Below, piece by piece: positions 4,038 to 35,169 of a DNA stretch of 38,287 nucleotides (positions within the stretch are counted from its first letter, which is position 1; every line of letters begins with the position of its first letter). This DNA is from Phycisphaeraceae bacterium (GTDB taxonomy: Bacteria > Planctomycetota > Phycisphaerae > Phycisphaerales > UBA1924): positions 1 to 38,287 of the forward strand of contig BQJQ01000004.1 in NCBI GenBank assembly GCA_021604785.1, in the 5' to 3' direction. The notes below the pieces were generated by a model. It did no database searches. It was not told the DNA's origin and saw only the letters and a program-made list of their open reading frames with translations. Made by a program: the position numbers and the translations under genes.

Positions 4038-5675
4038 TCAGCACCCGCCGAGGAAGAGAGCCACGAACCGGTCGATGTCGTCCACGTTCAGCAGCCCGTT
4101 GCAGTCCAGGTCCGCCCGCGCGTCCGAGCTGGTGAAGAACATCACGAACAGGTCGATGTCGTCCACGTTCAGCAGCCCGTTGCCGTCGAAATCGACCACG
4201 CACGGCGTGCACGTCGGGTGGTAGCACTTGATGACGTCGACCAGACCCACGCGGGCCCAGTTGCCCCAGGGCTCGAACTGCTCGTCCCCGATGAGCTGGA
4301 ACTGGAGCGGAAGTTGCTGAAGGACCGGCTCGCGGACATCCATGGGGATGCGGTCCTCGCAGCAGCCCGACGAGCCGAGGTCGTTGACCTTGATGAGGTG
4401 CTGGTCATCGCCGCCGATGGCCAGGGGGTAGTCCTCCCACGCGGAGAACGCCCAGCCGCAGACGGACTCGCCGAACCGGACCGGGGTGACGCCGGTCGCG
4501 CGGTCGCGCGGGTTGAGGTTCGGGCCGTAGGTGTAGAGCCAGAGGGGCGAGCCGACGGCGTCGAAGCTGATGCCCGCGGCGGTGCCGTGCGCGCCCGGGC
4601 CGGGCAGGAAGAAGTCCTGCGCGCCCGTCGCGACATCGAGGTTGTCGTTGAACCGCGTCGCGGCGTACGCGGGGACCATGCCGTCCACCTGGTTGTTGAA
4701 CAGCAGCACGCCCCCGGCGTCGAGCCAGAGGTGCGACGTCGCGAGGAGCGGGCCGCCGGCGTCGGTCGAGGCGCCGATGACCAGCGGCGTGCCGTTCGGG
4801 CCCACGTCGATGCCGTAGCCGACTTCCTGCGCGGGGTTATCGGGCAACAGCTCGCCCGTCGCGTTCGCCCAGATCGGCGCGCCGCCCGGGGCGATGCGCA
4901 TCGCGAGCACTTCAAAGTCCGGCGGGAGCCCGAGCGGATCCGGCGGGCGCGTGTTGATGAACCCGGTGATGACGACGTCGCCGTTGGGCAGTTCCTTGAG
5001 GTCGCTGAAACCCATCTCGGTCAGCGGGCCCAGCGCGGGGATCGAGTACGTCACCTCGACGAGCGGGATGCCCGCGGCGGTCGTCCGCACGTACTCGCCC
5101 AGCTGCCCGCCGGCGGTCGGCGCGACGTTGGTCACCGCGATGATGTCCCCCGTTTCGCGGGACTCGCGCACCGCGACCTGCGGGCGCGTGCCGTCAGGCC
5201 CGGGGTTGAAGAGCTCGAAGAAGACGTCGCCCGGGTAGGCGTGCGTCCAGAGGACGATCCCTGTCGGATCGAGGCGCGAGATCACGAGCCCGAGAATCGG
5301 GCCGACAGACTCGGTCATGCCGGCGACGATGAAATCGCCGTTGGATGCCTGGTGAACGGAGTACGCGACATCGCGTGCGAACCCGCCGATCTGGGTGGAC
5401 CAGATGGGCTTGCCGTCGACGTCGTAGCGGGTGACGAGCATGTCGGACGGGTCGATCCCGCCGGCGGGGTCGAACATGCCGTCGCGTTCGCCCGCGGTGA
5501 CGTACCCACCGCCGAAGGTTTCTTCGATGTCGTAGGCGCGTTCGGTGGCATCGGTGCCGTTGAAGCGTTGGAAGGTCTGCCCCGGCGCGACGCCGGCGAG
5601 AACAGCGAGCAGGCCCGCGGCGCACACGGTGCGTGCCGCGCGGTTCTTGGTCTGGTTGCGTTGCGTGCGTGTCAT
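4038..5675 (-). CDS. Secreted propeller-like protein with dockerin-like C-terminal tail
   Basis: A 545-residue exported protein. The ATG at 5675 has GGGGAGA 6 bases upstream. Residues 1-33 are a signal peptide (basic start, AGLLAVLAGVAPGQ). The body repeats short beta units of the type GGGYVTAGE...RYDVDGKPIWSTQ and NGDFIVAGMT...RLDPTGIVLWTH, which suggests a beta-propeller; I cannot name a ligand. Residues 492-545 form the island's tail: Cys492, a calcium loop DFDGNGLLNVDD, helix DIDLFVMFF, a second loop DLDCNGLLNVDD and helix, ending LFLGGC. The two loop-coding segments share a perfect 33-base direct repeat. It is the last gene of the island, 201 bases after the FG-GAP gene, and ends before the hairpin at 3955. 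Confidence 0.85.
   Translation of the reverse strand: MTRTQRNQTKNRAARTVCAAGLLAVLAGVAPGQTFQRFNGTDATERAYDIEETFGGGYVTAGERDGMFDPAGGIDPSDMLVTRYDVDGKPIWSTQIGGFARDVAYSVHQASNGDFIVAGMTESVGPILGLVISRLDPTGIVLWTHAYPGDVFFELFNPGPDGTRPQVAVRESRETGDIIAVTNVAPTAGGQLGEYVRTTAAGIPLVEVTYSIPALGPLTEMGFSDLKELPNGDVVITGFINTRPPDPLGLPPDFEVLAMRIAPGGAPIWANATGELLPDNPAQEVGYGIDVGPNGTPLVIGASTDAGGPLLATSHLWLDAGGVLLFNNQVDGMVPAYAATRFNDNLDVATGAQDFFLPGPGAHGTAAGISFDAVGSPLWLYTYGPNLNPRDRATGVTPVRFGESVCGWAFSAWEDYPLAIGGDDQHLIKVNDLGSSGCCEDRIPMDVREPVLQQLPLQFQLIGDEQFEPWGNWARVGLVDVIKCYHPTCTPCVVDFDGNGLLNVDDIDLFVMFFTSSDARADLDCNGLLNVDDIDRFVALFLGGC
4070..4183 (-). repeat. Perfect 33-base direct repeat inside the tail-coding DNA
   Basis: Bases 4070-4102 and 4151-4183 are identical over 33 bases, 81 bases (27 codons) apart. 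They encode the matching GLLNVDDID parts of the two calcium loops. Identity down to third positions suggests recent duplication or gene conversion of a half-module. Confidence 0.85.
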
Positions 5676-5798
5676 GGTTTCTCCCCAGAGACACGGGCGT
5701 GTGCGGGCCACGGGCCCGCGCCGCGGTGTGCGGCGTGTTCACCCAATACGGCATGAGCGGAGGCGCGCACGCGTGCTCACGCAGCGCGTAAGAAATAC

Positions 5799-5816
5799 CT
5801 GCACCGATTGGCGCAG
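5799..5816. repeat. Imperfect palindrome upstream of the propeller gene
   Basis: CTGCACC (5799-5805) and GGCGCAG (5810-5816) pair at 6 of 7 positions around GATT. It lies in the 201-base gap upstream of the gene starting at 5675, so it could be an operator or a small hairpin. No protein partner can be assigned. Confidence 0.25.
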
Positions 5817-5876
5817 GCTGGGGCAAGATCACCGTTTGTACGCGCGGGGTTCGCACGCCACTTCGGGGGGCTTTCG

Positions 5877-7349
5877 CTAGCCACACCCCGCGAGGAATGC
5901 GCCGACAAAGATATCGATGTCGTCGGTCGTCAGCACTTCGTCGGCGTTGAGATCAGCCAGCGGGCTCGACGCGAGGAAGTTCGCGACGAACACCTCGATG
6001 TCGTCGATGTTCAGGGCGCCGTCGCCCGTGAAATCGATGCCGCAGACGAGGAACGAGCGGCCCGAGAGCACCCAGAAGCGCCCGTGCTGCGGGCCGTCCC
6101 CGGTGAGCCAGGGCGCATTCACAAAGATGTCCGGCATGCCGTCGGCGTCTACATCGCCCATGCCGAAGGTCCACCCGCCGAAAGCGCCGCCGGGGCTCGT
6201 GGACGTCACGGTGCCGATGGGCGCGCCGTCCGTGCCGCGCACAACGCGGACTTTGCCGGTGAACCCGGGCGCACCGTCGGGGCTGCGCCAGTCGGTGACG
6301 ATGAGATCGTCGAGCCCGTCGCCGTCAAAGTCCCCGGCATTTCCGGTAGCGCCGGTGCCCTGAAGCGCAGACGACCCCACGATCTCGTAGAGAACCTCGC
6401 GGGTGGCGCCGTCGAAGACCACGGCCCGCCCGGTCTCCTGCCCGAGCGCGAAATCGAACTGGTCGCTGATGACGATCTCGTGGGCGCCGTCGCCGTTGAG
6501 GTCCACGGTTGGCGAAGGGATCCAGGAGCCGAACTCGGCGCTGGTGGCGCTCGGGGAGGTGAGCGGGTCGCCGATCGGTGCGCCCGTCGCACCCGAGAGA
6601 AGAAGGACATAGCCCGGGCCGGTGTTGGCAAAGTTCGGACGCATCTGGGGCGCCCCGACGGCGACATCGCGCACGCCGTCGGCGTTGTAGTCGTCCACCG
6701 GGAAGCAGTTGTGCCCGAAGGCATCGTGGGCAACGGCGCCGAGGGCGGACCAGAGCTCGGTGCCGTCCGCGCCGGAATACATCGCCACGCGCCCTGTGCG
6801 CTGCGCACCGGGCTTGTGGAACGGCGCCCCGACCAGCACGTCCGCGTGCCCGTCGGCGTTCACGTCTCCGGGCGAGGCGAGCCCGAGCCCGAACTGCTCG
6901 CTCGTCGTGAGCCCGTTCAAAGTAAGCACCGTCGAGCCATCGGCGCCGCTGAACACGAAGACTGTTCCGTTCGATCCGGTGTTCCACCCGGCGGCGGCGT
7001 AGTCGGGCACGCCGTCCGCGTTGACGTCCCCCACCTCGGCGGCTCGCTGAAAGACAACATCGAATCCCGGGCTCGGGTGCGTGCGGATGAGCACACCGGT
7101 CGCGCCGTCGTACAGGAAGCACGCCCCCGTGGTCCCGCTCGGGTTGGATCGGCCCGGCGCGTTGCAGGCGATCTCGGTGACGCCGTCGCCCGTGACATCT
7201 CCGACGGCGGCGGGGGCGAGCCCGAACTGGTCGAAGTTCTGCACGCCGCCGGCGGTGTGGATCACCTCGACACCGAGCTGCGCAAACTGGGCGCCGGCGG
7301 GCCCCGAGGCGAGCGTGCACCAAACGAAACACATCGAGATCGTCTTCAT
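5877..7349 (-). CDS. Secreted seven-repeat FG-GAP propeller protein with dockerin-like tail
   Basis: A 490-residue exported protein; AGGAG lies 5 bases before the ATG at 7349. The signal peptide ends near residue 20 (ASGPAGA before QFAQLG). Seven FG-GAP/VCBS-type units can be counted by their calcium loops, including GDVTGDGVTEIACNAPG, GDVNADGVPDYAAAGW, DDYNADGVRDVAVGAP and GDVDADGMPDIFVNAP, as in a seven-bladed integrin-alpha-like propeller. The tail (436-490) begins at Cys436 and ends FLAGCG. Its second loop, DLNADEVLTTDD, has lost the Gly and the position-9 Asn, so it may bind calcium poorly. It follows the AraC gene by 38 bases and ends the second peptidase-AraC-propeller cassette. Probable role: extracellular binding or scaffold protein; ligand unknown. 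Confidence 0.88.
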   Translation of the reverse strand: MKTISMCFVWCTLASGPAGAQFAQLGVEVIHTAGGVQNFDQFGLAPAAVGDVTGDGVTEIACNAPGRSNPSGTTGACFLYDGATGVLIRTHPSPGFDVVFQRAAEVGDVNADGVPDYAAAGWNTGSNGTVFVFSGADGSTVLTLNGLTTSEQFGLGLASPGDVNADGHADVLVGAPFHKPGAQRTGRVAMYSGADGTELWSALGAVAHDAFGHNCFPVDDYNADGVRDVAVGAPQMRPNFANTGPGYVLLLSGATGAPIGDPLTSPSATSAEFGSWIPSPTVDLNGDGAHEIVISDQFDFALGQETGRAVVFDGATREVLYEIVGSSALQGTGATGNAGDFDGDGLDDLIVTDWRSPDGAPGFTGKVRVVRGTDGAPIGTVTSTSPGGAFGGWTFGMGDVDADGMPDIFVNAPWLTGDGPQHGRFWVLSGRSFLVCGIDFTGDGALNIDDIEVFVANFLASSPLADLNADEVLTTDDIDIFVGAFLAGCG

Positions 7350-7387
7350 GGGGGCTCCTGCGGGGATGGTTCCGCGAGGAGCTTGGT

Positions 7388-8350
7388 TTACCGCGCGCCG
7401 AGCCCGGCCTCTTGAAGAGCCGTGCGCAACTGCTCTGCCCCCGACGCGTTCTCGGACAGCCGACCGGGCGGGATGCCCAGCTCGCGGCAAAAGCACCGCG
7501 TCATGTGCGACTGGTCCGCGTACCCGCACGCGAGGGCGATCGCCGAGAGCGGCTTTTGCCGGGCCAAGACCCGCTCGGCGGCGCTGAGCAAACGGACACG
7601 CCGACGGAACTGGTGCACCGTCATCCCCGTCGACCGCTTGAAGATGCGGCAGAAATGATGCGGCGCAATATGGACCCGCCGTCCGATGTCCGCGAGCGAA
7701 TACCGGGCCGACGCGTCCGACAAGAGCGTGATCGCGTGGGCGACGGCGTCGTCGTGGGCCCGGGCGACCGCGGGCGAACTGGGCGTGGGCAGCGCCGCGG
7801 GGACGTCCTCGCCTGCGCACGCACGCTCCACGATCTCGAGCAGCAGCGACTCGCACTCCGCGTCGTCGGCCCGCCCGGACTGGGCCCAACGCGCCGCCGC
7901 GCCGACCGCCAGCGCACACCAGGCGTCCGGGCGCCGCGTGCAATGCCCTTCGCGGCTCGTCTTGCCGCGGACGCGCCGCATCACATCGGGCGTGCACAGA
8001 TCGTCGAACGCATCCAGCTCGACGTTGATCCAGAGCGTCTGCCCGGGCGCGTCCGCCACGGCGCGGCGGACCACGGGCTCACGCCACGCATCGAACACCA
8101 CGGGCGTGCCCGGCGCCGCGAACTGGTGCCGACTCCGCACGCCCAGGATGAGCGGGACCTCCGGGAATGACACCCTCGGGAAATCGAGCCTGGGCCACTC
8201 GGCCGGGAGACTCGATGATCCCTCAAGCCAGCGCGAGCGGCAGAGCTTGACGGGGCCCCCGTCGATCAGGAGCGTCTTCTTGAACGCCCCGTAGCCCTCG
8301 GTCTCGAGCGTTTTCTCGAAACCGGCGCGATCGCAGCCGCCCGGTCTCAC
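7388..8350 (-). CDS. AraC-family transcriptional regulator, coupled to the upstream peptidase
   Basis: A 320-residue regulator. I choose the GTG at 8350 because it overlaps the peptidase stop as GTGA; an ATG at 8383 would run 37 bases into the peptidase gene. The N-terminal 200 residues are an unrecognised sensing region. Residues 212-297 are the double helix-turn-helix: YSLADIGRRVHIAPHHFCRIF and then LSAIALACGYADQSHMTRCF. It resembles the regulator at 11322 in the HFCRIF...TG-TVH segment, so the two are paralogues. Position between a secreted peptidase and a secreted FG-GAP protein suggests it controls the island, perhaps in response to peptides or sugars; that is inference. Confidence 0.88.
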   Translation of the reverse strand: MRPGGCDRAGFEKTLETEGYGAFKKTLLIDGGPVKLCRSRWLEGSSSLPAEWPRLDFPRVSFPEVPLILGVRSRHQFAAPGTPVVFDAWREPVVRRAVADAPGQTLWINVELDAFDDLCTPDVMRRVRGKTSREGHCTRRPDAWCALAVGAAARWAQSGRADDAECESLLLEIVERACAGEDVPAALPTPSSPAVARAHDDAVAHAITLLSDASARYSLADIGRRVHIAPHHFCRIFKRSTGMTVHQFRRRVRLLSAAERVLARQKPLSAIALACGYADQSHMTRCFCRELGIPPGRLSENASGAEQLRTALQEAGLGAR

Positions 8351-9627
8351 GGGCACCCGGCGACGAACGCGGCGACGTAACAATCGATGTCGTCCACGTT
8401 CAACCCGCCCGAACCGTCGCAGTCGGCAACCGCGAGGTTCCCGCCGACGAAGGCCGCGACGTAGGCGTCGATGTCGTCGACGTTCAGCGTCCCGTTGCCG
8501 TCCGCGTCGGCGAAACAGGCCGGGGCCTCGACGATCGACAGGTTGAGCGTGTACGGGTAGAACCCGACATCCTGCTCGATGTGCAGCACGTAGGTGCCCG
8601 GGTCGAGCGTCGTCTCGATGACGTCGCCATCATCCCACGGGCCGTTGTCGGCGAAACCGAGCTGGGCACCGCCCGCGTCGTGCAGCGTCGTGATCGCCTG
8701 CCACGCGAGCTCGTCCGTGCTGACCGACGCGGAAACTTCGGACCGCTCGGCGAGCGTGAACGTGAAGTAGTCGCTCTCGTCGCCCATGATCAGCGGGTGC
8801 GAGCCGGCGCCGATCGGCGCGGGGCTCCCGAAGGAGTCGTTGGGCTCGTGCTCGTCGTCGCCGACGTTCGGGCCGTTGTACATGAACGCGATCGTGTCCG
8901 CGTCGCCCTGGCTCAGGTAGCCCCGCTGACCCATAACGGATTCCTGGTCCGCGTATTCCGGAAGCGCGCTGATCGTGGGGCACGAACTGCACGAGCAGAT
9001 CGAGAACGCGCACCGCGAGTAGTGCATGATCGACTCGAAGTTGTACTCGCCGACCGGCAGCCCGCTCGAGGGCGTCTGGAAGTTGTTCTTCTTGTCAGGG
9101 TCGATGTTGTTCCAGTTGATCGTGACGTAGTCGTTGCGGAAAGGCTTCTGCTGCTCGTGCCAGATGCCCAGCGAGTGCATCACCTCGTGGCAGATGATGA
9201 ACCGCCAGGACCAGCTGACGATGTTGATGCCGTTGGAATTGCCCGAGTAGCCCACCGGCGAGCTGTTGGAGTTCGAACTCGCGTTGAAGTTGATGTACGC
9301 GTCCTCGTCGGTCCAGGGGATGAACTCGAGGAACGAGACGGCCTCAAGCTCGTCCATCGCCGCGCGGGCTCTGGACTGGTTGGTTGAGTTGACGTTGGCG
9401 CTGAACCGGTAGGGCACGACGCCGCCGGGCCAGAGACGGTCCGAGAACCCGCCGCGGAGGTTCGTCTCGATCGCATCGGTACAGGGGGCCCAGTCCTCGG
9501 GCATGTTCTCACCGGGCTGGGAGCCGAAGACCTCGCCGACGGGCGTGACCTGGGCACTCGCGGGGAAGGCCCCTGTGAGGCACACCGTGGCGGCGATCGC
9601 CGTCCGTACACCGAACACGTTCTGCAT
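8347..9627 (-). CDS. Secreted astacin-type metallopeptidase with PPC domain and dockerin-like tail
   Basis: A 426-residue exported zinc protease. The ATG at 9627 has GGGAG upstream. The signal peptide ends at about ASA-Q (25/26). Residues about 60-245 are an astacin (M12A) catalytic domain: zinc motif HEVMHSLGIWHEQ (147-159) and Met-turn SIMHYS (199-204). A Cys-rich segment follows at once (CAFSICSCSSC, 206-216). Residues about 257-362 fit a bacterial pre-peptidase C-terminal (PPC) domain, beginning EPNDSFGSP, with DYFTF and a GTYVLHIE strand. Residues 371-426 are the dockerin-like tail from C371 to FVAGCP. The gene begins the second cassette and its stop overlaps the AraC start. Likely function: cleavage of extracellular protein or peptide; substrate unknown. 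Confidence 0.9.
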   Translation of the reverse strand: MQNVFGVRTAIAATVCLTGAFPASAQVTPVGEVFGSQPGENMPEDWAPCTDAIETNLRGGFSDRLWPGGVVPYRFSANVNSTNQSRARAAMDELEAVSFLEFIPWTDEDAYINFNASSNSNSSPVGYSGNSNGINIVSWSWRFIICHEVMHSLGIWHEQQKPFRNDYVTINWNNIDPDKKNNFQTPSSGLPVGEYNFESIMHYSRCAFSICSCSSCPTISALPEYADQESVMGQRGYLSQGDADTIAFMYNGPNVGDDEHEPNDSFGSPAPIGAGSHPLIMGDESDYFTFTLAERSEVSASVSTDELAWQAITTLHDAGGAQLGFADNGPWDDGDVIETTLDPGTYVLHIEQDVGFYPYTLNLSIVEAPACFADADGNGTLNVDDIDAYVAAFVGGNLAVADCDGSGGLNVDDIDCYVAAFVAGCP

Positions 9628-9710
9628 GTCTCGCTCCCGACCTGGAGAAACGGCACCATGGGCACCCCGAGCGGGGCAGCGACACGGACGGCGCCTCTGG
9701 ACGGGTCAGT

Positions 9711-11264
9711 CTACGTGCAGCCGGCTAGAAAGGATGCCACAAACGCGTCAATATCGTCGATGTTCCGGACCCCGTTCGCGTCCAGATCCGCGATGCGGGA
9801 CCCGCCCAGGAACGCGTGGACGTAGATATCGACGTCGTCCGTGTCGGTGTCGTGGTCGCCGTCGTAGTCGCCCGGGCAGGGGGCCCGCCCGGCGATGCCG
9901 TAGTACGCGCCGACGAGCTGGCCCTGCTCGTCGTCGCGGAACCCGGCGGAGATGACGTAGTCGACCTCGCCGTCCCCGTTCGCGTCCGCCAGCGGCGAGA
10001 TGGAATACCCGAACTGCTCGCCGGTCGTGCCCGCGGCGTTGCCCCGGGTGCTCGTGATCGTCCGCAGCACCCTGCCGGTGCGCCCCGAATACACCCGCAC
10101 GCGCCCGGACCAGACGTGCTCGGGCTTGTCCGGGAGGTAGAGAAAATCGGTCGCGACATCAGCGCAGCCGTCGTGGTCCACGTCCCCCACGCCGCCGCCG
10201 AACCCGACCCACTGCCGCTGGCGCACGCCCTTCACGGACCAGTACGGCGCCAGCACCGCGCCCGGGTTCGCGAGCCCGTGGGCGACATCGAACACGTAGG
10301 CCGCGCCGGTCCTGCCGCCGAACGTGCGGTCCTCGTGGTCACCAACGAAGATGTCCGGGACGCCGTCGCCCGTGCAGTCGCCCGGTGTGGACGCGAAATA
10401 CTGCCCGAAGTTCGCCATGCCTGACGAATCGCCCGTAAAAGCGAACAGCGTGTTCCCCGTCGCGCCGTCGTACACCCAGCCCATCCCGGTCGTCATGTGG
10501 TTGCGAGCGCAGATGAAATACTCGCCGATCCCGTCGCCCGTGACGTCGCCGAGCAAGTTCGCCGACGACCCGTACCGGTCGTTCGCCGCGGGCCCGGGGT
10601 GCGTCCGCAGGACCGTGAGGTCCGCGCCCGAGATCACCCAGGCCCGCCCGGCGTTGTTCGCGTCCTCGTCCCAGAGGTCCGCGGTGACGAGGAAATCGTC
10701 GTGCCCGTCGCCGTTGATGTCGTCGAGCGGTGCGATGTCCTGCCCGAACCGGTCCGTGCCCAGGTCCGTCTCGGTCGTCGCGTACGTCGCCGCGACGAGC
10801 TCGTGCAGCAGCGCGTGGTCCGCGCCCGAGTACACGAAGACGCGCCCGGGCACGGTTGGATTGCTGGTTCGGTAGATATCCCCCGCGGCCCCGACGGCGT
10901 AGTCCGGCGTGCCGTCCGCGTTCACGTCGCCCAGCCGCGCCAGCCGCCACCCGAAGAAGCCCAGCGGGATCCCCCCAGTGTGCGTCGCGAGGATCTCCCC
11001 CGTCGCGCCGTCGTGGACGAACGCGACGCCGACCTCGAGCTGCCCGTCGAGGCGCCGATACGGGGCCGAGTTCAAGCATTCGGGCACGCCGTCGCCCGTG
11101 AAGTCCGCCAGCGTCTCGGTGACGTACCCGAACTGCTCTCCCGGGTTCTCCCCGAGCTGCTCGTACAGCTGCACGACGCCGTCCTCGACGTACCCGGGCG
11201 AGCCCGCACCGAGGGCCTGCGGGCCCGAAGCAACCGCCGCGATGATCATGAAATACGCACGCAT
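9711..11264 (-). CDS. Secreted seven-repeat FG-GAP propeller protein with dockerin-like tail
   Basis: A 517-residue exported protein. AAAGGAG at 11271-11277 is 6 bases before the ATG. The signal peptide ends near residue 20 (ALGA). Seven FG-GAP-type units are visible, for example ADFTGDGVPECLNSAP, GDVNADGTPDYAVGAA, GDCTGDGVPDIFVGDH and GDVDHDGCADVATDFL, again matching a seven-bladed propeller. The tail (463-517) runs from C463 to FLAGCT; its first loop DYDGDHDTDTDD keeps the acidic residues but not the usual LN pair. It is a paralogue of the protein at 5877 in architecture and sits in the same place, after an AraC gene (57-base gap) and before a peptidase gene. Confidence 0.88.
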   Translation of the reverse strand: MRAYFMIIAAVASGPQALGAGSPGYVEDGVVQLYEQLGENPGEQFGYVTETLADFTGDGVPECLNSAPYRRLDGQLEVGVAFVHDGATGEILATHTGGIPLGFFGWRLARLGDVNADGTPDYAVGAAGDIYRTSNPTVPGRVFVYSGADHALLHELVAATYATTETDLGTDRFGQDIAPLDDINGDGHDDFLVTADLWDEDANNAGRAWVISGADLTVLRTHPGPAANDRYGSSANLLGDVTGDGIGEYFICARNHMTTGMGWVYDGATGNTLFAFTGDSSGMANFGQYFASTPGDCTGDGVPDIFVGDHEDRTFGGRTGAAYVFDVAHGLANPGAVLAPYWSVKGVRQRQWVGFGGGVGDVDHDGCADVATDFLYLPDKPEHVWSGRVRVYSGRTGRVLRTITSTRGNAAGTTGEQFGYSISPLADANGDGEVDYVISAGFRDDEQGQLVGAYYGIAGRAPCPGDYDGDHDTDTDDVDIYVHAFLGGSRIADLDANGVRNIDDIDAFVASFLAGCT

Positions 11265-11321
11265 ATCCGTCTCCTTTGCGTCAGGATCCGGACATCGATA
11301 CCCGCGACCCGGCCTCCCGGA

Positions 11322-12278
11322 TCACCGCGATCCTGCGCATCCGCCCGGCGAAGGACGCAACGCCCGGGCGAGCTCGCCCCGGTCGCCCCGCGTGAGCCGG
11401 CGGACGGCGCTGGGCGTCATCCCCACGTGCTTTCGGCACGCGTCCGCAAAGTGATTCCCCCCCGCGAACCCGCACCGCGACGCGATCTCCGCGATCACGA
11501 GTGAGTCGTCGGCGAGCATGCCCACCGCTTGCGCCAAACGCAGACGCGTCAGGTAGGTGTGCACCGTCACGCCCGTGCGCGTGCGAAAAATCCGGCAGAA
11601 ATGCAGCGGGGACAGGTACGCCACCCGCGCGACGTCCGTGAGCGTCATCCGCTCGGTCGCGTGGGCCGCCATGTGCTCCGCCGCCAGATTCACCGCCTCG
11701 TGGTGGGCCCGGGCCGTCTGCTCCCGCCGAACACGCGCCGTCCGGGTCATCGCGACCGCCGGGGCGATCAAACCCCCGAGCACGCCCAGCGCCAGCTCCT
11801 CGGCGAGCACCGGGTCCGGGTCCGCCCCGGCCAACGCTGCCAGCGCCCGCAGGTGCACGCCCGTTGTGGGCGTCACCGGCCCGGTCATAAACCCGAACGG
11901 GCGACTCTGGTCCACCGAGCCCGACCCCGAGCCCCGCGCGACGAACTCCGCCGTGACATCCGGCCGCGCCCAGACCCAGTCGGTCGCCTCGCCCCGCGGG
12001 TCGAGGGCTCGCTTTCGGTACGCCTGTTCCTGGTTCGAAAACAGCGCGACGGCGGGCGTCCCCACGACCTCCCGCGGCGAGCCCGCCCAGGCGAATCGCA
12101 TCGCCCGCCGCGGCACGCCCACGATCGGGCCGCCGCGACCGGTCACGTTCTCAGCCCCCCACTCGGGCGCCCCCGGGCGAAGCCGCAGCGTCCCGAACGC
12201 GACCGAGCCGATCACCTCGAGGGTGCTCGACCCGCCGCCTTCCAAGTCACTCCCGCGATCCGTGTCCCGCATCCGCAT
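11322..12278 (-). CDS. AraC-family transcriptional regulator
   Basis: A 318-residue regulator starting at ATG 12278 (MRMRDTDRGSD), 37 bases after the peptidase stop; an alternative ATG lies at 12272. Neither has a strong ribosome site, so coupling to the upstream gene is plausible. Residues 205-294 are the double helix-turn-helix: MTLTDVARVAYLSPLHFCRIF, then LVIAEIASRCGFAGGNHFAD. The N-terminal half is an unrecognised ligand region unlike a classic cupin. It is a paralogue of the regulator at 7388 by sequence and by position in its cassette. Confidence 0.85.
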   Translation of the reverse strand: MRMRDTDRGSDLEGGGSSTLEVIGSVAFGTLRLRPGAPEWGAENVTGRGGPIVGVPRRAMRFAWAGSPREVVGTPAVALFSNQEQAYRKRALDPRGEATDWVWARPDVTAEFVARGSGSGSVDQSRPFGFMTGPVTPTTGVHLRALAALAGADPDPVLAEELALGVLGGLIAPAVAMTRTARVRREQTARAHHEAVNLAAEHMAAHATERMTLTDVARVAYLSPLHFCRIFRTRTGVTVHTYLTRLRLAQAVGMLADDSLVIAEIASRCGFAGGNHFADACRKHVGMTPSAVRRLTRGDRGELARALRPSPGGCAGSR

Positions 12279-12315
12279 GTCGGGTGATACCGCCCGGCCC
12301 GGCGCCGGTGGCGGC

Positions 12316-14253
12316 TCAGGGACACCCGGCGATAAACGCCGACACGAACCCGTCCACGTCGTCAACGTTCAGCGTCCCGTTGCCGTCGAAATCGACCGCG
12401 AGGTCGCCCCCGATGAACGCCGCCACGAACGCGTCCACATCGTCCACATTCAGCACGCCGTTGCCGTCCACGTCCGCGGGGCAGGCGACGGCGCAGACAT
12501 CCAGCACGCCGTCGCGGTCCGCGTCCACGGCGTCGTTGAACGCGCGGTACCGGAACCGGACCGTCGCGGCGGTCGATGCCGAGCAAACCGTCAGCCCGAC
12601 GTCCGGCGTGCCCTCGACCTCGATCTCCACGCCCGGCCCGTCCCGCAGCGCGTTGAACTGCGCGGCGCTGAGCGTCACGGTCTCGAGCACCGTCGGGGCG
12701 TAGCAGTCGAACGGGTACCCGGCGCCGTAGATGTTCGACCACTCGCCGTTATCAAGAGTCACGGTGAGGAGCTCGGACGACTCGCCGAGGTCGCCGTAGA
12801 TGACGATGTCCATCGAGACGTTGCCGTCCGCCTCGGGCAGGCCGGCCATCGTGGCCGATGCCGTCTGGCCATCACCGACGGGCCCGATGGGCAGCGACGT
12901 CTCGAAAACATTCGGGCGGGCCTCGTAGTCATCGAGGATGCCGTTCGCGTTGCAATCCGGCGCGCCCGCAGCGATGTCGCACGAATCGGGCACGCCGTTG
13001 GCGTTGTCGTCGCGGACGTCCCCCGCCGCGATCTCGATCGCGTCGGGCGCGCCCGAGCCGTCGCAGTCCGCCGGGTCCGTCGCGCCCATGCGGAAGGACG
13101 TGATGAGGTCGTCGGTCTGCTCGATCAGGCGGGCGTTGTCACGCTGGTTCGCGATGCCCGTGGCCCCGCCGAACGCCGAGACGTCCGGGTTCGAGAAGTA
13201 CGGCACCCGCTGCCCGGGCGAGTACGACATTACCGAGCGGTACTGCTCGCCGTTCCACCGGTGCCCGTACCCGTAGGGGAAGTACGACCCGCCGGCGTTG
13301 TCCGGGTCGTGCGCGCACCCGTAGTTGTGCCCGAGTTCGTGCGCAAAGGTGAGGTTGCCGATCGCGCAATCGAGATCGATTACGGAGAACCCGCTGTACG
13401 ACGCGTCATCCGGCGCAAGCCACGCGACGCCGCAGAAACCTGAGACATCGACCACCAGCGGCACAAGGTCCGCCTGGTACGCATCGCGAAGGACATGAAG
13501 CTCGTCCATGTGCCCCTCGTGCACGCCCGTGGAGTAGTGCAGCAGCGTGCCGCCATTGTCGCTGGGCAGGGAGTCCACGACGGTGTACCCCGCGAGCTCG
13601 AGCTCGAACGGCCCCAGGTCGCTGTTCCCGAGGGCCTCGTTCGCGCTGGCGACGGCGGACGCCGCGAACACCGCGCGGTTCGCGTCGGACCCGAGCTGCG
13701 ACGCGACGCTCGGCCCGATCGCCACGAGCACGCGAGCTACCGTCTCGGCGCCACGCGCCACCGGCGCCCCGTCCACGCCCTCGAGCAGGTGTTCCTCGGC
13801 CCCGGCCATGCACGCGGGGAGGTTGCGCGCCACGGGCACCACCTCCGCCAGCGGGCGCCCGCGGGCGTCTGCGCTGCCGGTGCCATGAATTTCAAACGCG
13901 CCGTCCGCGGTCCACACGGCGCCCCAAACCGCGTCGTCCGTGCGCGCCAGCACGTACGTCCCGCCATCCGCAACGCGCCCGGTGAGCGTGAAGATCGTCC
14001 CCGGCTCGCTCGCGCCATCCCCAACGCGCCCGGCGCGGGTCTCGCTCACGCGCCCGCTCATCAGCCGCGCGACCCGGCCGTCCGGCAACTCAAGCATGAT
14101 CGGCGCCCGCGGGCCCGCATCCAGACCCTCGCCCTGCCCCGCCGCGGCACGCAGCGCGTCGATCCGCACAGGGACCTGGGCCGGCGCAGCGCCCGAGACA
14201 GACACAAACACGAACGGCACGGCAAGACACGCCGCGGAGCGGATCGAATGCAT
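12316..14253 (-). CDS. Secreted reprolysin-like metallopeptidase with dockerin-like tail
   Basis: A 645-residue exported zinc protease. GGAGG (14260-14264) lies 6 bases before the ATG at 14253; the signal peptide ends near PAQ (26). Residues 27-165 look like a propeptide. The catalytic domain (about 170-390) has HELGHNYGCAHD (305-316), the HExxHxxGxxHD motif of M12B reprolysins, and Met-turn VMSYSPG (341-347). Residues 395-445 contain short Asp-rich repeats (DCDGSGAPDAIEIA, DNANGVPDSCDIA, DCNANGILDDYE) like thrombospondin type 3 calcium linkers. A beta-sandwich-like region follows (about 450-575), then the tail from C591 to FIAGCP, whose two loops are near-perfect dockerin loops. First gene of the first cassette. 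Confidence 0.9.
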   Translation of the reverse strand: MHSIRSAACLAVPFVFVSVSGAAPAQVPVRIDALRAAAGQGEGLDAGPRAPIMLELPDGRVARLMSGRVSETRAGRVGDGASEPGTIFTLTGRVADGGTYVLARTDDAVWGAVWTADGAFEIHGTGSADARGRPLAEVVPVARNLPACMAGAEEHLLEGVDGAPVARGAETVARVLVAIGPSVASQLGSDANRAVFAASAVASANEALGNSDLGPFELELAGYTVVDSLPSDNGGTLLHYSTGVHEGHMDELHVLRDAYQADLVPLVVDVSGFCGVAWLAPDDASYSGFSVIDLDCAIGNLTFAHELGHNYGCAHDPDNAGGSYFPYGYGHRWNGEQYRSVMSYSPGQRVPYFSNPDVSAFGGATGIANQRDNARLIEQTDDLITSFRMGATDPADCDGSGAPDAIEIAAGDVRDDNANGVPDSCDIAAGAPDCNANGILDDYEARPNVFETSLPIGPVGDGQTASATMAGLPEADGNVSMDIVIYGDLGESSELLTVTLDNGEWSNIYGAGYPFDCYAPTVLETVTLSAAQFNALRDGPGVEIEVEGTPDVGLTVCSASTAATVRFRYRAFNDAVDADRDGVLDVCAVACPADVDGNGVLNVDDVDAFVAAFIGGDLAVDFDGNGTLNVDDVDGFVSAFIAGCP

Positions 14254-14430
14254 GGGAGACCTCCATCTGGGAACGGGCAAAGCAGCCCCAAGATCGTACC
14301 AGACCCCGCGATGCGGACCGCGTGATTTGCATGGCATTCGGCTGGTTATCGCTGCCTCCCGCCCGCAACGATCGCACACCGGGCGTCGCGGGACCACAAA
14401 CCGTCACCAAACGCCGCGGAATACGGGCCC

Positions 14431-15666
14431 CTACGGGCACCCGCCGAGGAAAGCGGCAACGAACGCCTCGACATCGTCCACGTTGAGCGCGCCGTTCGCA
14501 TCGAGGTCAACCGCGAGATCCCCCGCGAAGAACAGCGTCACGAACGCGTCGATGTCATCCACATTGAGCGACCCCGACCCGTCCAGATCCGCCGGGCACA
14601 GGGCCGTGCCGCCCACCGTGAGCTGGTACGGCGCGTGCCCCGTGAGCCGTTCGACGCAGAGGGTGTACGCGCCCGGCGCGACATCAAGATCAAACGCCGC
14701 GACCGCGCCGCCGAGCATGCGCCGCGTCGCCACGATCCCGCCGACGTCGGTGTACACACGCAGGCGAGCGTCGAGCAACGGCTCGCCCGACTGAGCCGCG
14801 ATGACAAGTGAGCCGTCGCCGGACGCCCCCAGCGTGAAGTAGTCCTCGTTGTCCTGCAGCTGCATCTCGTACGAACCGGGACCGATCGCCGCGGCGGACT
14901 CCGCGTCGTCGTTGTCCTCGAACGCGTCGTCCACGCCGCCGGGGAGCCCGTACAAGAACACGAGCAACGCCGCGTCCCCGTCGCTCAGATAGTCCTTCTG
15001 CCCGATGACCCCTTGATACTCGGCGTACTCGGGCTGCATCTGAATCGTGCGACACTCCGTGCAGCTCAGCAGCACCGCGCAGTTCGTGAAGGTGCACTGC
15101 TTGTAGTGCATGATCGACTCGAAGTCATACTCCCCGTGCTTCGACGCGACCGAGTTCGGAAGCTTATCAAACTGCGGCCACCATCCGGGATCGATCTCAT
15201 CCCACAGGATCTCGATGTAGGTGTCCCGGTCCGCACGCTGATGCTCGTGGATCGCGCCCAGCGCGTGCATGAGCTCGTGCGCGATAATGAATCTGCGGTC
15301 CCAGCTCGTCACACTCAGCTGCTGGGGCCCGCCCACCATCCCGAGCGGCGAGCTGTTGCCCGCGGCGGAATTGATACACAAGTAGTTCGAATGCCCCGAC
15401 CGAGGCACATACACCACGTTCGCCGCCGCTTCCAGTTCGGCCATCGCGTCTAGCATCCGTGTCTGGTTCAACGGCGTGACGCCCTCATCAAACTCGTACG
15501 GCACCACGCCCCCGGGCCACGACACACCAGCGAACACGCCCCGCGCCGGGTCCATCACAACCACGCACGGGTCCTCGCCCGCCCACGGATCTGGCGGCGC
15601 CGCGGCCATCCCCCCGGGCACACCAGCACTCAACACCCCCACGATCAACACACCAAACATCAGCAT
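14431..15666 (-). CDS. Secreted astacin-type metallopeptidase with dockerin-like tail
   Basis: A 411-residue exported zinc protease. GGGAG is 7 bases before the ATG at 15666 (a second ATG is at 15660). The signal peptide is short and ends near AAA (23). HELMHALGAIHEHQRADRD (130-148) matches the full astacin signature, and SIMHYK (184-189) is the Met-turn. A Cys-rich segment follows it (CTFTNCAVLLSCTEC), as in the protease at 8347, and PEYA...GQKDYLSDGDA is shared with that protein, so the two are paralogues. Residues about 258-350 are a PPC-like beta domain. The tail (357-411) runs from CPADLDG to FLGGCP. It stands alone between the deiminase and the reprolysin gene, with a candidate promoter at 15834-15863. 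Confidence 0.9.
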   Translation of the reverse strand: MLMFGVLIVGVLSAGVPGGMAAAPPDPWAGEDPCVVVMDPARGVFAGVSWPGGVVPYEFDEGVTPLNQTRMLDAMAELEAAANVVYVPRSGHSNYLCINSAAGNSSPLGMVGGPQQLSVTSWDRRFIIAHELMHALGAIHEHQRADRDTYIEILWDEIDPGWWPQFDKLPNSVASKHGEYDFESIMHYKQCTFTNCAVLLSCTECRTIQMQPEYAEYQGVIGQKDYLSDGDAALLVFLYGLPGGVDDAFEDNDDAESAAAIGPGSYEMQLQDNEDYFTLGASGDGSLVIAAQSGEPLLDARLRVYTDVGGIVATRRMLGGAVAAFDLDVAPGAYTLCVERLTGHAPYQLTVGGTALCPADLDGSGSLNVDDIDAFVTLFFAGDLAVDLDANGALNVDDVEAFVAAFLGGCP

Positions 15667-15833
15667 TCCATCTCTCCCGCCGGCGTCCGCGCGCCGCTCC
15701 GAAGTACGAGCATCGCCCGAGGCACGTCCCACACCAAACCCGCCGCGACCGCCCCCATGCCGGGCTCGCCCTCGCAACCCCTCCACGCGCCCACCGCGTT
15801 TGGTGCTACGGCTGGCGCGGACCACGAGCTGCT

Positions 15834-15863
15834 ATTATTCACCAATAGTGTGCATTTTGTGAA
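15834..15863 (-). promoter_or_regulatory. Candidate sigma-70 promoter for the astacin gene
   Basis: Minus strand: TTCACA (15858-15863), an 18-base spacer, AATAAT (15834-15839); both boxes match 5 of 6 consensus bases. It lies in one of the few AT-rich patches of the window, about 170 bases before the ATG at 15666, leaving a long leader. Confidence 0.45.
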
Positions 15864-15946
15864 CAGAAAGCCCGACAGCAGCCCTGATCACCCCAAAAAA
15901 TCAACGCCAATCAAACCCTTCGCGCGATGCCCGCCGCCCCGTGCGG

Positions 15947-17155
15947 CTACGGGCACCCGCCGAGGAAGGCGGCGACGAATGCATCGACGTCGTCCACGTT
16001 CAGCAGGCCGTTCCCATCGAAATCGACCGCGAGATCCCCCGCCAAGAAGAACGTGGTGAATGCATCAACATCGTCGACGTTAAGCAGACCATTCGCGTCC
16101 AGATCCGCAGAGCACGGCTGCGCCTGTGATATGGGCTGGTCGTTGGTCACACAATGCACCCCGCCACCCCAGTACCAGATTTCCCGGCAGTCAACCACAA
16201 GAACATCACGCCCCGGGAAGAAGCCCTGGATCGTGCTGGCCGCCGCGTTGTCCCACGCGGGCTTGTTGAATCCTGTGACAATGACGGCCCCGTTGATCAC
16301 GAGCCAGTTCACGTAGTTCGCCGACATCTGGCTGCCTTGGTAGCTCACCTTCCCGGGGATATCGATCCTGACGACCTCGAAGCCCGCGGCTGAGATGATC
16401 TGCACCGCCTCTTCGTACACAGGCGCATCGACATCGCTCTGATCCACGTGCCGCGCCACCGCAACGGTGTCCACATCAATGAAGCGCGCAATACCGTCCA
16501 CGTGTCCCCCGGTGAATTCGTCATCGGCGGGCGCTGTCTCAAGCCACACGATCTGCGTTACGCCGAATTTCTCGGCAAACAGCACCTCGTGCTCGGCACG
16601 CGTCATGCCCGGGTTGCGATCGGCGAACACGGGCCACGTCGTGATCAGCGCACCAGCACCATTGAACTCAAGCGCCCCCCGCTCGTTGATCGTGCCGATT
16701 GCGTCGGTTGCGTGCCCGGTTGTCTGTGCGACCCACGCGGGCACCGCGTCATCGAGATTCCACGGCGCGATGATCCCGCCCCACGCGTCGAACGCCCAAT
16801 CCTGCGCCGTGAGCCCGCCGCCCTGCTCGACCCAAACCGGCCCGTTATCACGCATCCACGCCCAGTTGTACGGCGTGACATGAAATGTCACATTGTTGAG
16901 CGGGACCCCCCGCGCCGCGAGGTACGCCTCCGCCTGCCCACGCGCGGCCTCAGTCCTGGTGAGTAAGTTAAGGTGCTCGTATCCCTGGATCGCACCGATG
17001 ATGCGCGCAAAATCAGGTCGGTAAGAACTCTCGATGCCATGCGGCCACTGCATCCATGTCGCCGACTGCGGCTCCCACTCAGCAGGCACGCGCGGCGTCG
17101 CGGTTGCAGTCCCGCCCGCGATCGCGATGACCGCAAGCAGAATCAGTGACTTCAT
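15947..17155 (-). CDS. Secreted agmatine/peptidylarginine deiminase-family protein with dockerin-like tail
   Basis: A 402-residue protein. The ATG at 17155 has GGAGGAG about 7 bases upstream. Residues 1-20 are a signal peptide (MKSLILLAVIAIAGGTATAT). Residues 24-345 belong to the family containing agmatine deiminase and Porphyromonas peptidylarginine deiminase: MRDNGPVWV (101-109), DDEFTGGHVDGIARF (211-225, with H218 and D220) and GGGVHCVTND (330-339), whose C335 is the expected nucleophile. The usual LEGG segment is degenerate (GALEFNGAGALITT). Typical agmatine deiminases are cytoplasmic; export and the Cys-bounded tail (348-402) make an extracellular role, on free or peptide-bound guanidino groups, more likely. 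The three protease genes downstream fit that idea, but the substrate is inference. Confidence 0.88.
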   Translation of the reverse strand: MKSLILLAVIAIAGGTATATPRVPAEWEPQSATWMQWPHGIESSYRPDFARIIGAIQGYEHLNLLTRTEAARGQAEAYLAARGVPLNNVTFHVTPYNWAWMRDNGPVWVEQGGGLTAQDWAFDAWGGIIAPWNLDDAVPAWVAQTTGHATDAIGTINERGALEFNGAGALITTWPVFADRNPGMTRAEHEVLFAEKFGVTQIVWLETAPADDEFTGGHVDGIARFIDVDTVAVARHVDQSDVDAPVYEEAVQIISAAGFEVVRIDIPGKVSYQGSQMSANYVNWLVINGAVIVTGFNKPAWDNAAASTIQGFFPGRDVLVVDCREIWYWGGGVHCVTNDQPISQAQPCSADLDANGLLNVDDVDAFTTFFLAGDLAVDFDGNGLLNVDDVDAFVAAFLGGCP

Positions 17156-17192
17156 CACCAGGCTCCTCCAGCGCAGCACAACGCTTGGTCGC

Positions 17193-17221
17193 AGTCTAGT
17201 TTCTGTGACGCTCTTACACAA
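17193..17221 (-). promoter_or_regulatory. Candidate promoter for the deiminase gene
   Basis: Minus strand: TTGTGT (17216-17221), a 17-base spacer, TAGACT (17193-17198), about 40 bases before the ATG at 17155. The boxes match 3 and 4 of 6 bases; the support is the exact spacing and the low GC of this gap. Confidence 0.3.
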
Positions 17222-26405: not shown

Positions 26406-27527
26406 TCAGAACCGTTTCGTCCATCCCAGCATCACCGAGCCGAGCGTGTCGCGGTCGCCCTGGCCCTTGTACTCGTGGGTGTTCATGGTCCACCCGTACC
26501 CGGCGACGAGGTCCCCGCCGAAGAGGTCGAAGCGGGCGCGGACGCCGATCTCGACCTCACCCACCAGCCGCTCGGGGCTGGTCGAGCGCGAGTTCGCGAA
26601 GGTGTTGCCCTCGAGGAAGATGTTCCGCCCGACGGCCCGCATGCCGACGCGCCCGTAGACGTACGCCCCCCACCCGTGCTCTTCGGACCACGACCCGGTC
26701 GCGTCGCGGTAGTCGAGCAGGCGGCCCGGGCCGAAGTCGTCGGGGATGTGCTTGCCCAGGCGAACGGTGACGTCCGTGTTGGCGCGGATGAAGACGTTGC
26801 CCACGTCGAACCCGAGGCGGGGGATGGCGTCGAGCTCAAGCCCGCCGTCGCCGCCGATCTGCGCGACGTCCGACTTCCACGACCGCTGCACGCGGAGGTT
26901 GATCGCCAGCTCGTTCGCCAGCTGCGTGCCCCACCCCTGCGGCTCGTACTGCCCGGGCAGCCCGTGGATCGCCCGCTGGGCGTCTTCCGCGAGCGACCAC
27001 GACCCGACCACGCCCACGTCGAGCTCGAAGTGATCGTGCACGTTGCCCGAGCGACGCTGCAGGAACGCACCGGCGTACAAATACCCGGCGTACGGGCGAT
27101 CGCCCGCGGGCGGGTCGCGGTCCTGGATGTCCGACGACGTGTAGATGTGCTGGGCGAGGACGACACCGAACGCGAGCTTGGCGTCGGGCCATTTGTCCGC
27201 CGGGGCGAGGAACTCGCGCGTCTCGGCGTCGAAATCCGGGTCGAAGGTGAGCTCGATCTTGGTGGCAGCGGAGTAGTGGCGGTCGTCGTCGTCCAAGGGC
27301 TCGATGATCGAGCCGTCGTTCTGGTGCCAGACGTAGAAGCCGGTGAACCGCCACCCATCGCGCTCGCCCTCGAGGTCGCGCGGGTCGAGGTCAAGCGAGC
27401 CGAGGTCCGCCGAGGTCTCCGCGTTCGTGACCGCAGCGGGCGTGCCGCCCTGCCCGAGCGCGGGGGCCGCGATCAGCGCCGTGCCCACCGCCGCGGCAAT
27501 CAATCCGATGTATGAGCGTCCCTGCAC
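26406..27527 (-). CDS. LpxR-family (DUF2219) outer-membrane protein
   Basis: A 373-residue exported beta-barrel-like protein. The start is uncertain: GTG 27527 gives a compact signal peptide (MQGRSYIGLIAAAVGTALIA, cleavage near ALGQ), while GTG 27566 overlaps the acetyl-CoA synthetase stop as GTGA and adds 13 residues. Family features are WHQNDGS (67-73, whose Asn-Asp would be the active-site pair), DDDRHYSAATKIELTF, GDRPYAGYLYAGAFLQR (142-158), AIHGLPGQ (His188) and GWGTQLANELAINL. The protein ends VMLGWTKRF, with a terminal Phe typical of outer-membrane barrels. Characterised LpxR removes the 3'-acyloxyacyl group of lipid A; the activity here is inferred. Confidence 0.8.
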   Translation of the reverse strand: MQGRSYIGLIAAAVGTALIAAPALGQGGTPAAVTNAETSADLGSLDLDPRDLEGERDGWRFTGFYVWHQNDGSIIEPLDDDDRHYSAATKIELTFDPDFDAETREFLAPADKWPDAKLAFGVVLAQHIYTSSDIQDRDPPAGDRPYAGYLYAGAFLQRRSGNVHDHFELDVGVVGSWSLAEDAQRAIHGLPGQYEPQGWGTQLANELAINLRVQRSWKSDVAQIGGDGGLELDAIPRLGFDVGNVFIRANTDVTVRLGKHIPDDFGPGRLLDYRDATGSWSEEHGWGAYVYGRVGMRAVGRNIFLEGNTFANSRSTSPERLVGEVEIGVRARFDLFGGDLVAGYGWTMNTHEYKGQGDRDTLGSVMLGWTKRF

Positions 27528-27562
27528 GCGACGAGCATACCCACGCCGCGGATGGGCCGGGC

Positions 27563-29548
<1,986 letters not shown>

Positions 29549-31620: not shown

Positions 31621-31627
31621 GCGCCCA

Positions 31628-31635
31628 CCTTCCTT
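31628..31635 (-). promoter_or_regulatory. Shine-Dalgarno deciding the pilB-like start
   Basis: AAGGAAGG on the minus strand, 7 bases from GTG 31620. It makes the longer reading from GTG 31662 unlikely. Confidence 0.6.
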
Positions 31636-31677
31636 CGCCCCGAACAAACCCGCGGCCCGCACGCGGACCGGGCAGAA

Positions 31678-32415
31678 TCACTCGAACAGCTCGGTCGTCT
31701 CGCCGGCCATCGTCAGCAGGAACCGACGCCCGTGCGCCGTCACAATGACGCCGTCGCGGGAGATGTCCTGCACGTTGAACAGCCCGTCGGCGCCCACCGC
31801 GTCGCCGATGCGGCACAGCTGGCCCGAGATCGTCGCGACGGGCACCCGCCCGCCGATCATGCTCTGGACGTGCAGCTTGCGCACCTCAGAGGTGATCCGC
31901 CGGGCCATGTCGGCCGAACGCCGGCGTTCGTCCTCGGCGAGCTGCTGCTCGCGACGCTGACGCTGCGCCTCGTTCAGGTCCGCCTCGTTCACCTCGACGG
32001 CCGCCGAAGCCAGCTGCAAACGCTGATCGATCTCGAACGGCTGCTCCGGCAACTCCTCAGCAGCCACCTGCAGCGGCCGCCCGGACCGGGCCAGCTCGTC
32101 CATCGCCCGGTCGAACCGGCGCTCGAAGTCGGCGTTGATGGCGCTGGGCTGGTACTCGACGCTCAGGGTCTTGCCCGAGATGCCCGAGACGGTGCCGACC
32201 TTGCGCATCCCGTAAATGGCCCCGCCGCTAAGCACGAGCAACACCATCGCGATGATCGCCTGGTTTCCGACCTTGCCGCCCTTGCCGCCGAACCCGGAAG
32301 AGGGCTCGGGCCCGCCGGCCTTGCCCTCAAGATCCAGGAACATGTTCGCGCCCTCGCCGGCGGGCTTGGCCGCCAGCGGGTCCGATCCGTCATGCTGTGC
32401 GAGGTTCTGATTCAC
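31678..32415 (-). CDS. PilP/GspC-like inner-membrane pilus protein
   Basis: A 245-residue protein. The GTG at 32415 overlaps the pilO stop as GTGA and has AGGAGG (32423-32428) 7 bases upstream. A Gly-rich cytoplasmic lead (1-50) precedes one membrane helix (about 51-69, NQAIIAMVLLVLSGGAIYG). A helical region with a charged coiled coil (ADLNEAQRQRREQQLAEDER) follows. The last 50 residues (QLCRIGDAVGADGLFNVQDISRDGVIVTAHGRRFLLTM) resemble the small beta domain of PilP and GspC that contacts the secretin. Position after pilO, where pilP normally lies, supports the call; overall similarity is weak. Confidence 0.65.
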   Translation of the reverse strand: MNQNLAQHDGSDPLAAKPAGEGANMFLDLEGKAGGPEPSSGFGGKGGKVGNQAIIAMVLLVLSGGAIYGMRKVGTVSGISGKTLSVEYQPSAINADFERRFDRAMDELARSGRPLQVAAEELPEQPFEIDQRLQLASAAVEVNEADLNEAQRQRREQQLAEDERRRSADMARRITSEVRKLHVQSMIGGRVPVATISGQLCRIGDAVGADGLFNVQDISRDGVIVTAHGRRFLLTMAGETTELFE

Positions 32416-32951: not shown

Positions 32952-32964
32952 GGTCAGCTCCTGC

Positions 32965-33735: not shown

Positions 33736-33752
33736 GGTCACATCCCCGTTCT

Positions 33753-34988: not shown

Positions 34989-35169
34989 CCGCTCCCCGTC
35001 TGGCCGCGCCATGACTCAGACGCCGCACAAACGCGGCGCACCGTCCCATGCACGGGATCGGCGCGCAGACCGCATCCCTTCACACCCCGCCCGCACACTC
35101 ACCCGCTTGCGTGCAATCCGCAGCGCAGAGATCGCGCACACCGCACCAACCCACCAGTTGTGATCAGGC

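Follow-up and report, generated by a model that had tools for sequence, protein, structure and literature searches.

What might a short module shared by the ends of seven exported proteins, otherwise built from different domains and encoded almost side by side, hold on to? The question is raised by an island of genes on the minus strand (4038-17221) of contig BQJQ01000004.1 (C4) from a Phycisphaeraceae bacterium, which we analyzed over its whole 38,287 bases (hereafter, the window) and which belongs to a 2.87 Mb assembly of 273 contigs that is 88% complete. The module is that of NCBI model NF041540 (dockerin_GC), 'GC-type dockerin domain-anchored protein', a name that an earlier interpretation made from the letters alone (the sequence-only reading) had given correctly. 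We put at roughly 55% the probability that this tail docks more than 100 secreted proteins of this bacterium on one extracytoplasmic receptor common to them all and not recognizable as a cohesin. Our observations, all from sequence analysis, concern the module, its C-terminal position, the pairing of its cysteines, a genus-specific residue code, the export signals of the carriers and the lack of recognizable cohesins. In what follows, C14, C55 and C80 are contigs of the window's genome, G-numbers are other genomes, and L-numbers are fetched loci.

The island comprises nine consecutive genes, seven for tail proteins and two of the AraC family, and signal-peptide-like starts were found in all seven tail proteins, using a crude heuristic. 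NF041540 covers the last ~54 residues of each (E-values 8.8e-10 to 2.1e-5); its curated cut-off of 29 bits was passed by four of the seven as whole proteins and reached by all seven tails in a six-frame search. The gene arrangement and the attached domains were as the sequence-only reading had described them, with domain matches identifying one weak SBBP-like propeller, two FG-GAP propellers, two astacins, one reprolysin and one peptidyl-arginine deiminase, while the island's end, placed at 17155, had been set too early, the deiminase gene starting at ~17179-17221. The island itself, with its seven tail genes confirmed, proved to be one of several: contig C14 (L071:145-20000 and L072:1-13627) packs 16 such genes into 29 kb, all in one orientation and with almost nothing else between them, in an order conserved in a second genome, metagenome-assembled genome (MAG) 3_bin.101 (loci L137, L136 and L127).

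Across the window's genome NF041540 gave 118 matches at E<=10, 67 of them above the cut-off. A profile that we made from the seven tails of the window, run on the contigs with NF041540 matches, found 121 open reading frames (ORFs; 101 with two-loop and 20 with one-loop tails), and among 1,867 heuristically called genes over 2.19 Mb of the genome it marked 115, which puts the tail on ~115 proteins of this genome. The module lies almost invariably at the end: G53 is present in 98 and C54 in 104 of the 121 tails, and among 107 complete tails with C54, 103 stop no more than seven residues past it, 80 of these exactly one residue past. By a crude test, 91 of the 113 tail ORFs with 150 or more amino acids had signal-peptide-like starts versus 106 of 402 other large ORFs, which supports the earlier reading that the tail is carried by secreted proteins. 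Moreover, the tail was matched in all 28 sampled genomes of the window's family (first-look candidates mostly 35-237 each), and profile A2, for compact tails, found at least 149 in G003 and about 80 in G225, 90 in G189, 93 in G185 and 100 in G291. Outside the class, no strong match (E<=1e-6) was present among 294 genomes drawn from the phylum.

The proteins that carry the tail form a broad functional mixture. Pfam searches of 112 tail proteins identified peptidases as a minority (astacins, subtilases, reprolysins and M14/M43/M64 members), alongside FG-GAP propellers, two deiminases, endonuclease I, esterases, heme peroxidase, lysyl oxidase, arylsulfotransferase, GH16 and beta-helix proteins; in many others no domain was matched. 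The tail is a mark of the general secretome, not of one degradative program, and because of this mixture the protease-centered system envisaged from the island was rejected.

The tail is 54-55 residues long and has two loops, each half following D-x-D-x-N-G-x-L-N-V-D-D-I-D-x-F-V-x-x-F. The calcium-ligand scheme 1, 3, 5, 9, 12 is matched in both loops, and ligand positions are conserved (D1 in 99-100%, D12 in 100%). An AlphaFold2 model of a window tail with 63 relatives reached a predicted local distance difference test (pLDDT) score of 97, with helices at 13-24 and 40-51, and that of an eight-cysteine relative reached 94.8. Searched against the PDB with Foldseek, the nine best matches were all dockerins (template modeling (TM) scores 0.56-0.63, E about 1), followed by calmodulin-type EF-hands, mostly at TM 0.31-0.35; sequence matches to solved dockerins were weak (E 0.07-0.22). 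The claim that the loop spacing is that of type I dockerins stood for the register inside each loop but not for the distance between loops, which is not the canonical one: from the first D1 to the second are 27-28 residues, 6-7 closer than in solved dockerins (41 query positions versus 47-48). Taken together, the model and the ligand scheme point to a dockerin-like module, as had been proposed, for which calcium binding is predicted.

The sequence-only reading had called the tail Cys-bounded, which was correct and more important than was claimed, in that the N- and C-terminal cysteines covary. We counted pairs in the 101 two-loop tails of the window's genome and repeated the counts on the second genome. 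C5 and C18 (loop one, positions 2 and 15) occur together in 37 of the 101 tails and never singly (37/37), and the equivalent pair of loop two, C32 and C45, in 52, again never singly (52/52); the second genome gave 44/44 plus one lone C18 for the former and 52/52 for the latter. C1 and C54 are both present in 82 tails (62 in the second genome), single in 2 and 9, and both missing in 8. Where C54 is present and C1 absent, a cysteine is often found one residue further upstream (5/9 here, 14/18 in the second genome), and two tails without C54 have C3 and C49 in its stead, a pair present together in nine tails, with three apparent exceptions that are alignment gaps on visual inspection of the tail strings. 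Extra cysteine pairs occur in about half of the tails, and the loop cysteines covary in one-loop tails too (10/10). The simplest reading would be four kinds of disulfide, namely an end-to-end clasp (1-54, or 3-49) and a staple in each calcium loop. The Gly-Cys end is probably half of the clasp and not an anchor, because C54 covaries with an N-terminal cysteine that shifts by one residue when off column 1; a lipid or sortase-like anchor at the C-terminal cysteine was rejected on this covariation.

Tails from elsewhere in the family, in other genera, retain calcium ligands, putative clasp cysteines and GC end, and have changed residues adjoining the loops. The code here, N-V-D-D-I-D-x-F-V, is the same in 3_bin.101 with more variety at position 10; elsewhere it is N-F-F-D-V-S-A-F-L (G291), D/N-F-F-D-V-Q-x-F-L (G189 and G185), N-T-L-D-V-L-A-F-L (G225) or T-I-F-D-F-L-A-F-Q (G003). 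Identity within minus between genomes is highest at loop positions 14 (0.64), 17 (0.56), 11 (0.51) and 10 (0.49), which in both loops are near uniform within a genome and different between genera, and is ~0 at ligands 1 and 12 and core F16. The other-genus tails had been selected for their similarity to the own-type profile, a choice that should bias the comparison against seeing a difference between genera. Published determinants of dockerin specificity are positions 10, 11, 17, 18 and 22, beside calcium ligands at 1, 3, 5, 9 and 12 (PMC5748583, PMC4582956), and code positions 10, 11 and 17 coincide with them. Within each of five other genera the attached proteins lacked mutual homology (E<=1e-5), and of seven homologous protein pairs between genera (37-53% identity), all seven had the host genome's code on each member. 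Synonymous codons at conserved tail columns are close to those in the rest of the genes, which argues against recent gene conversion, and we rejected it as the source of the uniformity.

Variants of the tail and of the signal peptide were also seen. One-loop half tails ending in GC(P), often as tandem paralogs, occur at L087:516-5609, L092:6681-9438, L085:9840-10598, L113:2177-3343 and L088:8408-9307. Dockerin-like tails of other kinds were seen in further genera of the family (L298, L276, L277 and L297), such as ADLAALLGAW...C or, in G261 and G279, longer repeats, which suggests several tag types within the family. A signal-peptide motif, [AC]LFGGA-x-x-x-AG, was found in 10 of the 1,867 called genes, all ten tail-bearing (e.g., L087:648-5609, L092:6681-8678, L103:659-2354 and L076:7127-8074), and possibly marks a dedicated export class.

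We propose that the tail would act as a docking tag, a compact, calcium-binding, disulfide-clasped dockerin by which a single shared partner, or very few, would hold more than 100 otherwise unrelated exported proteins outside the cytoplasm. Loop positions 10, 11, 14 and 17 of either half would form the contact face, and the partner would have diverged between genera, with all tags of a genome following it. Coevolution with one shared receptor predicts just such a pattern: one face, repeated twice, nearly uniform over more than 100 mostly unrelated proteins, genus-specific and located on known recognition positions of dockerins; the receptor would sit at the cell surface. A fuller version, to which we give somewhat less than even odds, is that a single non-cohesin receptor, different per genus, docks much of the secretome via covalently clasped dockerin tags whose code evolved in concert over more than 100 genes per genome, as a surface-display or complex-forming system.

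Several points weigh against docking on a shared receptor. The Foldseek E-values of the dockerin matches are not significant, the module being tiny, and the 20 one-loop tails are unusual for a dockerin. The five other genera are represented by 3-4 tails each. Among 19 genomes of the family (f1), one had VKOR and none had DsbB, so that both candidate disulfide-making enzymes are essentially missing and the prediction of an oxidase failed; in the same order, the tail-less families f2 and f3 commonly have VKOR. Finally, no receptor was identified. In this genome, of which 88% is present, the Pfam cohesin model and a lineage cohesin profile both had 0 matches.

The tail could instead be a C-terminal export or sorting signal, a counterpart of the C-terminal domain of the type IX secretion system (T9SS), which is read once by an outer-membrane machine (e.g., type II-like) that moves folded proteins, with no need for these to stay docked. 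This would suit a tail that is near-always C-terminal, on a very mixed secretome and in more than 100 copies per genome, with no obvious scaffoldin-like repeat protein in a self-BLAST of the 1,867 called genes, and coevolution with one translocon would likewise yield a genus-specific code. The genome also encodes a GspD-like secretin at a contig end, with at least 11 Secretin_N domains (L216:10016-14500), and many relatives have a giant version (G003:C13, G032:C1, G279:C39 and G125:C15) with open frames of 4,600-5,000 amino acids and ~45-50 matches per genome. However, the distribution of the giant secretin does not match that of the tails: many tail-rich genomes have it, but seven others (G090, G096, G119, G201, G213, G221 and G237) lack it, and it is present in tail-less f5 genomes; for the same reason it was rejected as the receptor. 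The code, moreover, sits on dockerin specificity positions, and a tripartite signal of the LPXTG, PEP-CTERM or GlyGly-CTERM type was rejected because the tail, which is acidic, soluble, helical and ends in GC(P), has neither transmembrane helix nor basic end. We regard an export signal, the main rival to docking, as unlikely.

The usual partner of a dockerin is a cohesin. An ordinary cohesin-dockerin system, its cohesin too divergent for the profiles or located in the missing 12% of the genome, would resemble the 'planctosome', a cohesin/dockerin protease complex hypothesized in 2019 for Phycisphaerae, with cohesins in Nemodlikiaceae (PMC6461901). A lineage profile built from 30 cohesins of the class and run on 61 family genomes did find one match in G336, of the same genus (E 2.4e-7), and others in eight further family genomes, among them G304 (G304:C283, L264) with three cohesin-like domains in one frame. 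Against this, only these 9 of 61 genomes had any lineage-profile match, and there was none in the window's genome or its called genes; with Pfam, searched over 298 class genomes, one or two sub-cut-off matches were seen in 3 of the 28 sampled family genomes. G003, 100% complete and with its 149 compact tails, had no cohesin with either profile, and G032, 99% complete and with 223 first-look tail candidates, had none with Pfam. A cohesin partner of this kind seems to us distinctly improbable, and a recognizable one, sporadic in the family and missing from the window's genome, was rejected. The sequence-only reading, which had seen no cohesin-like partner, holds for the genome as assembled. The search that it suggested, for cohesin-like or other repeated receptor domains co-occurring with the tail, gave sporadic cohesins and the discordant giant secretin. 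That there is no common partner, the tail being a stabilizing calcium/disulfide end-cap or a recombination-spread module uniform within a genome for that reason, would fit the clustered paralogs on C14, C55 and C80, the two loop halves of one tail being more alike than expected and the empty receptor search, but is very improbable given that synonymous codons are not homogenized, that uniformity is focused on positions 10, 11, 14 and 17 and not on the whole module, and that a cap needs no genus-specific surface residues.

Table 1. Genes of the island and the tails they encode, in window coordinates
Feature	Position	Strand	Basis
Secreted protein, weak SBBP-type propeller similarity, tail at end	4038..5711	-	Profile match, signal-peptide heuristic
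GC-dockerin tail (CVVDFDGNGLLNVDDIDLFV...FLGGC-stop) of SBBP-like propeller protein	4041..4202	-	Profile search
Secreted FG-GAP propeller protein with tail; start set at signal peptide, frame open to 7997	5877..7349	-	Domain match
GC-dockerin tail of first FG-GAP propeller protein	5883..6044	-	Profile search
AraC-family transcription regulator (HTH_18), between tail genes	7388..8383	-	Domain match
Secreted astacin-type (M12A) metalloprotease with tail	8347..9627	-	Domain match
GC-dockerin tail of M12A astacin, with putative second-loop Cys staple (DCDGSGGLNVDDIDCYV)	8353..8517	-	Profile search, Cys covariation
Secreted FG-GAP propeller protein with tail; syntenic L130 homolog 67% identical	9711..11264	-	Domain match, synteny
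GC-dockerin tail of second FG-GAP propeller protein	9717..9878	-	Profile search
AraC-family transcription regulator, between tail genes; 63% identity to copy in syntenic locus L130	11322..12365	-	Domain match, synteny
Secreted reprolysin-like (M12B) metalloprotease with tail	12316..14280	-	Domain match
GC-dockerin tail of reprolysin; query of AlphaFold2 model, pLDDT 97	12322..12483	-	Profile search
Second secreted metalloprotease of astacin type, with tail; start at signal peptide near 15732	14431..15825	-	Domain match
GC-dockerin tail of second astacin	14437..14598	-	Profile search
Secreted Porphyromonas-type peptidyl-arginine/agmatine deiminase with tail	15947..17221	-	PF04371, E 5e-79
GC-dockerin tail of deiminase	15953..16114	-	Profile search

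The island is followed by the ATP synthase alpha gene (atpA) at 17252 and is partly conserved, beside the same gene, in locus L130. Elsewhere in the window we noted an LpxR-like outer-membrane protein at 26406-27566 (PF09982, E 2e-72) and, at 29623-35012, genes for the assembly of type IV pili / type II secretion (T2SSE ATPase, PilO, PilN and PilM), which lie ~12 kb away from the island. Neither Rfam matches nor tRNAs were found in the window.

Outside cellulosomes, cases of dockerins unaccompanied by cohesins are reported, and their binding partners are an open question. This family offers a genome-scale handle on it: one relative has at least 149 tails, codes differ among several genera, and there are complete genomes in which no cohesin is recognizable. 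Changes in the partner should parallel those at positions 10, 11, 14 and 17, so that it would be traceable by coevolution or pull-down. If the docking proposal is true, a tag that is small, calcium-dependent, disulfide-locked and genus-specific would make a useful orthogonal tether.

Among known systems, NF041540 describes the same domain with the same C-terminal position and terminal Gly-Cys, under a term that our literature search found in no paper (four named both Phycisphaerae and dockerins, the relevant one being PMC6461901); its model has 67 positions, whereas the tails here have 54-55 with a shorter middle, extra cysteine pairs in about half, and 20 one-loop members. Like the type I dockerins of clostridial cellulosomes, the tails have two DxDxNGxxNxxD loops, each with a helix and the same ligand positions, and, at 10, 11 and 17, residues that are uniform in a species group and differ from one group to the next (PMC5748583, PMC4582956). 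Unlike them, they have a shorter inter-loop distance, a putative Cys clasp and loop staples, and an extra genus-specific position, 14; furthermore, no cohesin or scaffoldin was found in the genome, and the carriers are not plant-wall enzymes. With the planctosome (PMC6461901) they share an origin in freshwater Planctomycetes, the presence of dockerins on peptidases, reprolysin-like ones among them, and a proposed extracellular complex. Since that hypothesis dates from 2019, the idea of a protease cellulosome is not new, and the earlier view of the system as undescribed stands only in part: the published model depends on anchor and adaptor proteins that bear cohesins, of which none is recognizable in this genome, and its carriers are of much greater number and variety. 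What is new here is the perfect covariation of the pairs C5-C18 and C32-C45, the genus code at 10, 11, 14 and 17, and the lack of recognizable cohesins here and in most of the family.

An intramolecular clasp of the R. flavefaciens ScaA dockerin was reportedly described by Slutzki et al. in 2013, as the title has it. In both cases the N- and C-terminal ends would be tied; the tie here would be a covalent Cys-Cys one, with C3-C49 as an alternative pair. The C-terminal domains of T9SS substrates have an Ig-like beta fold, and PEP-CTERM and GlyGly-CTERM are transmembrane tripartite signals. The tail resembles all three in being one C-terminal tag on many secreted proteins per genome, and differs from them in being helical and, in the AlphaFold2 model, EF-hand-like.

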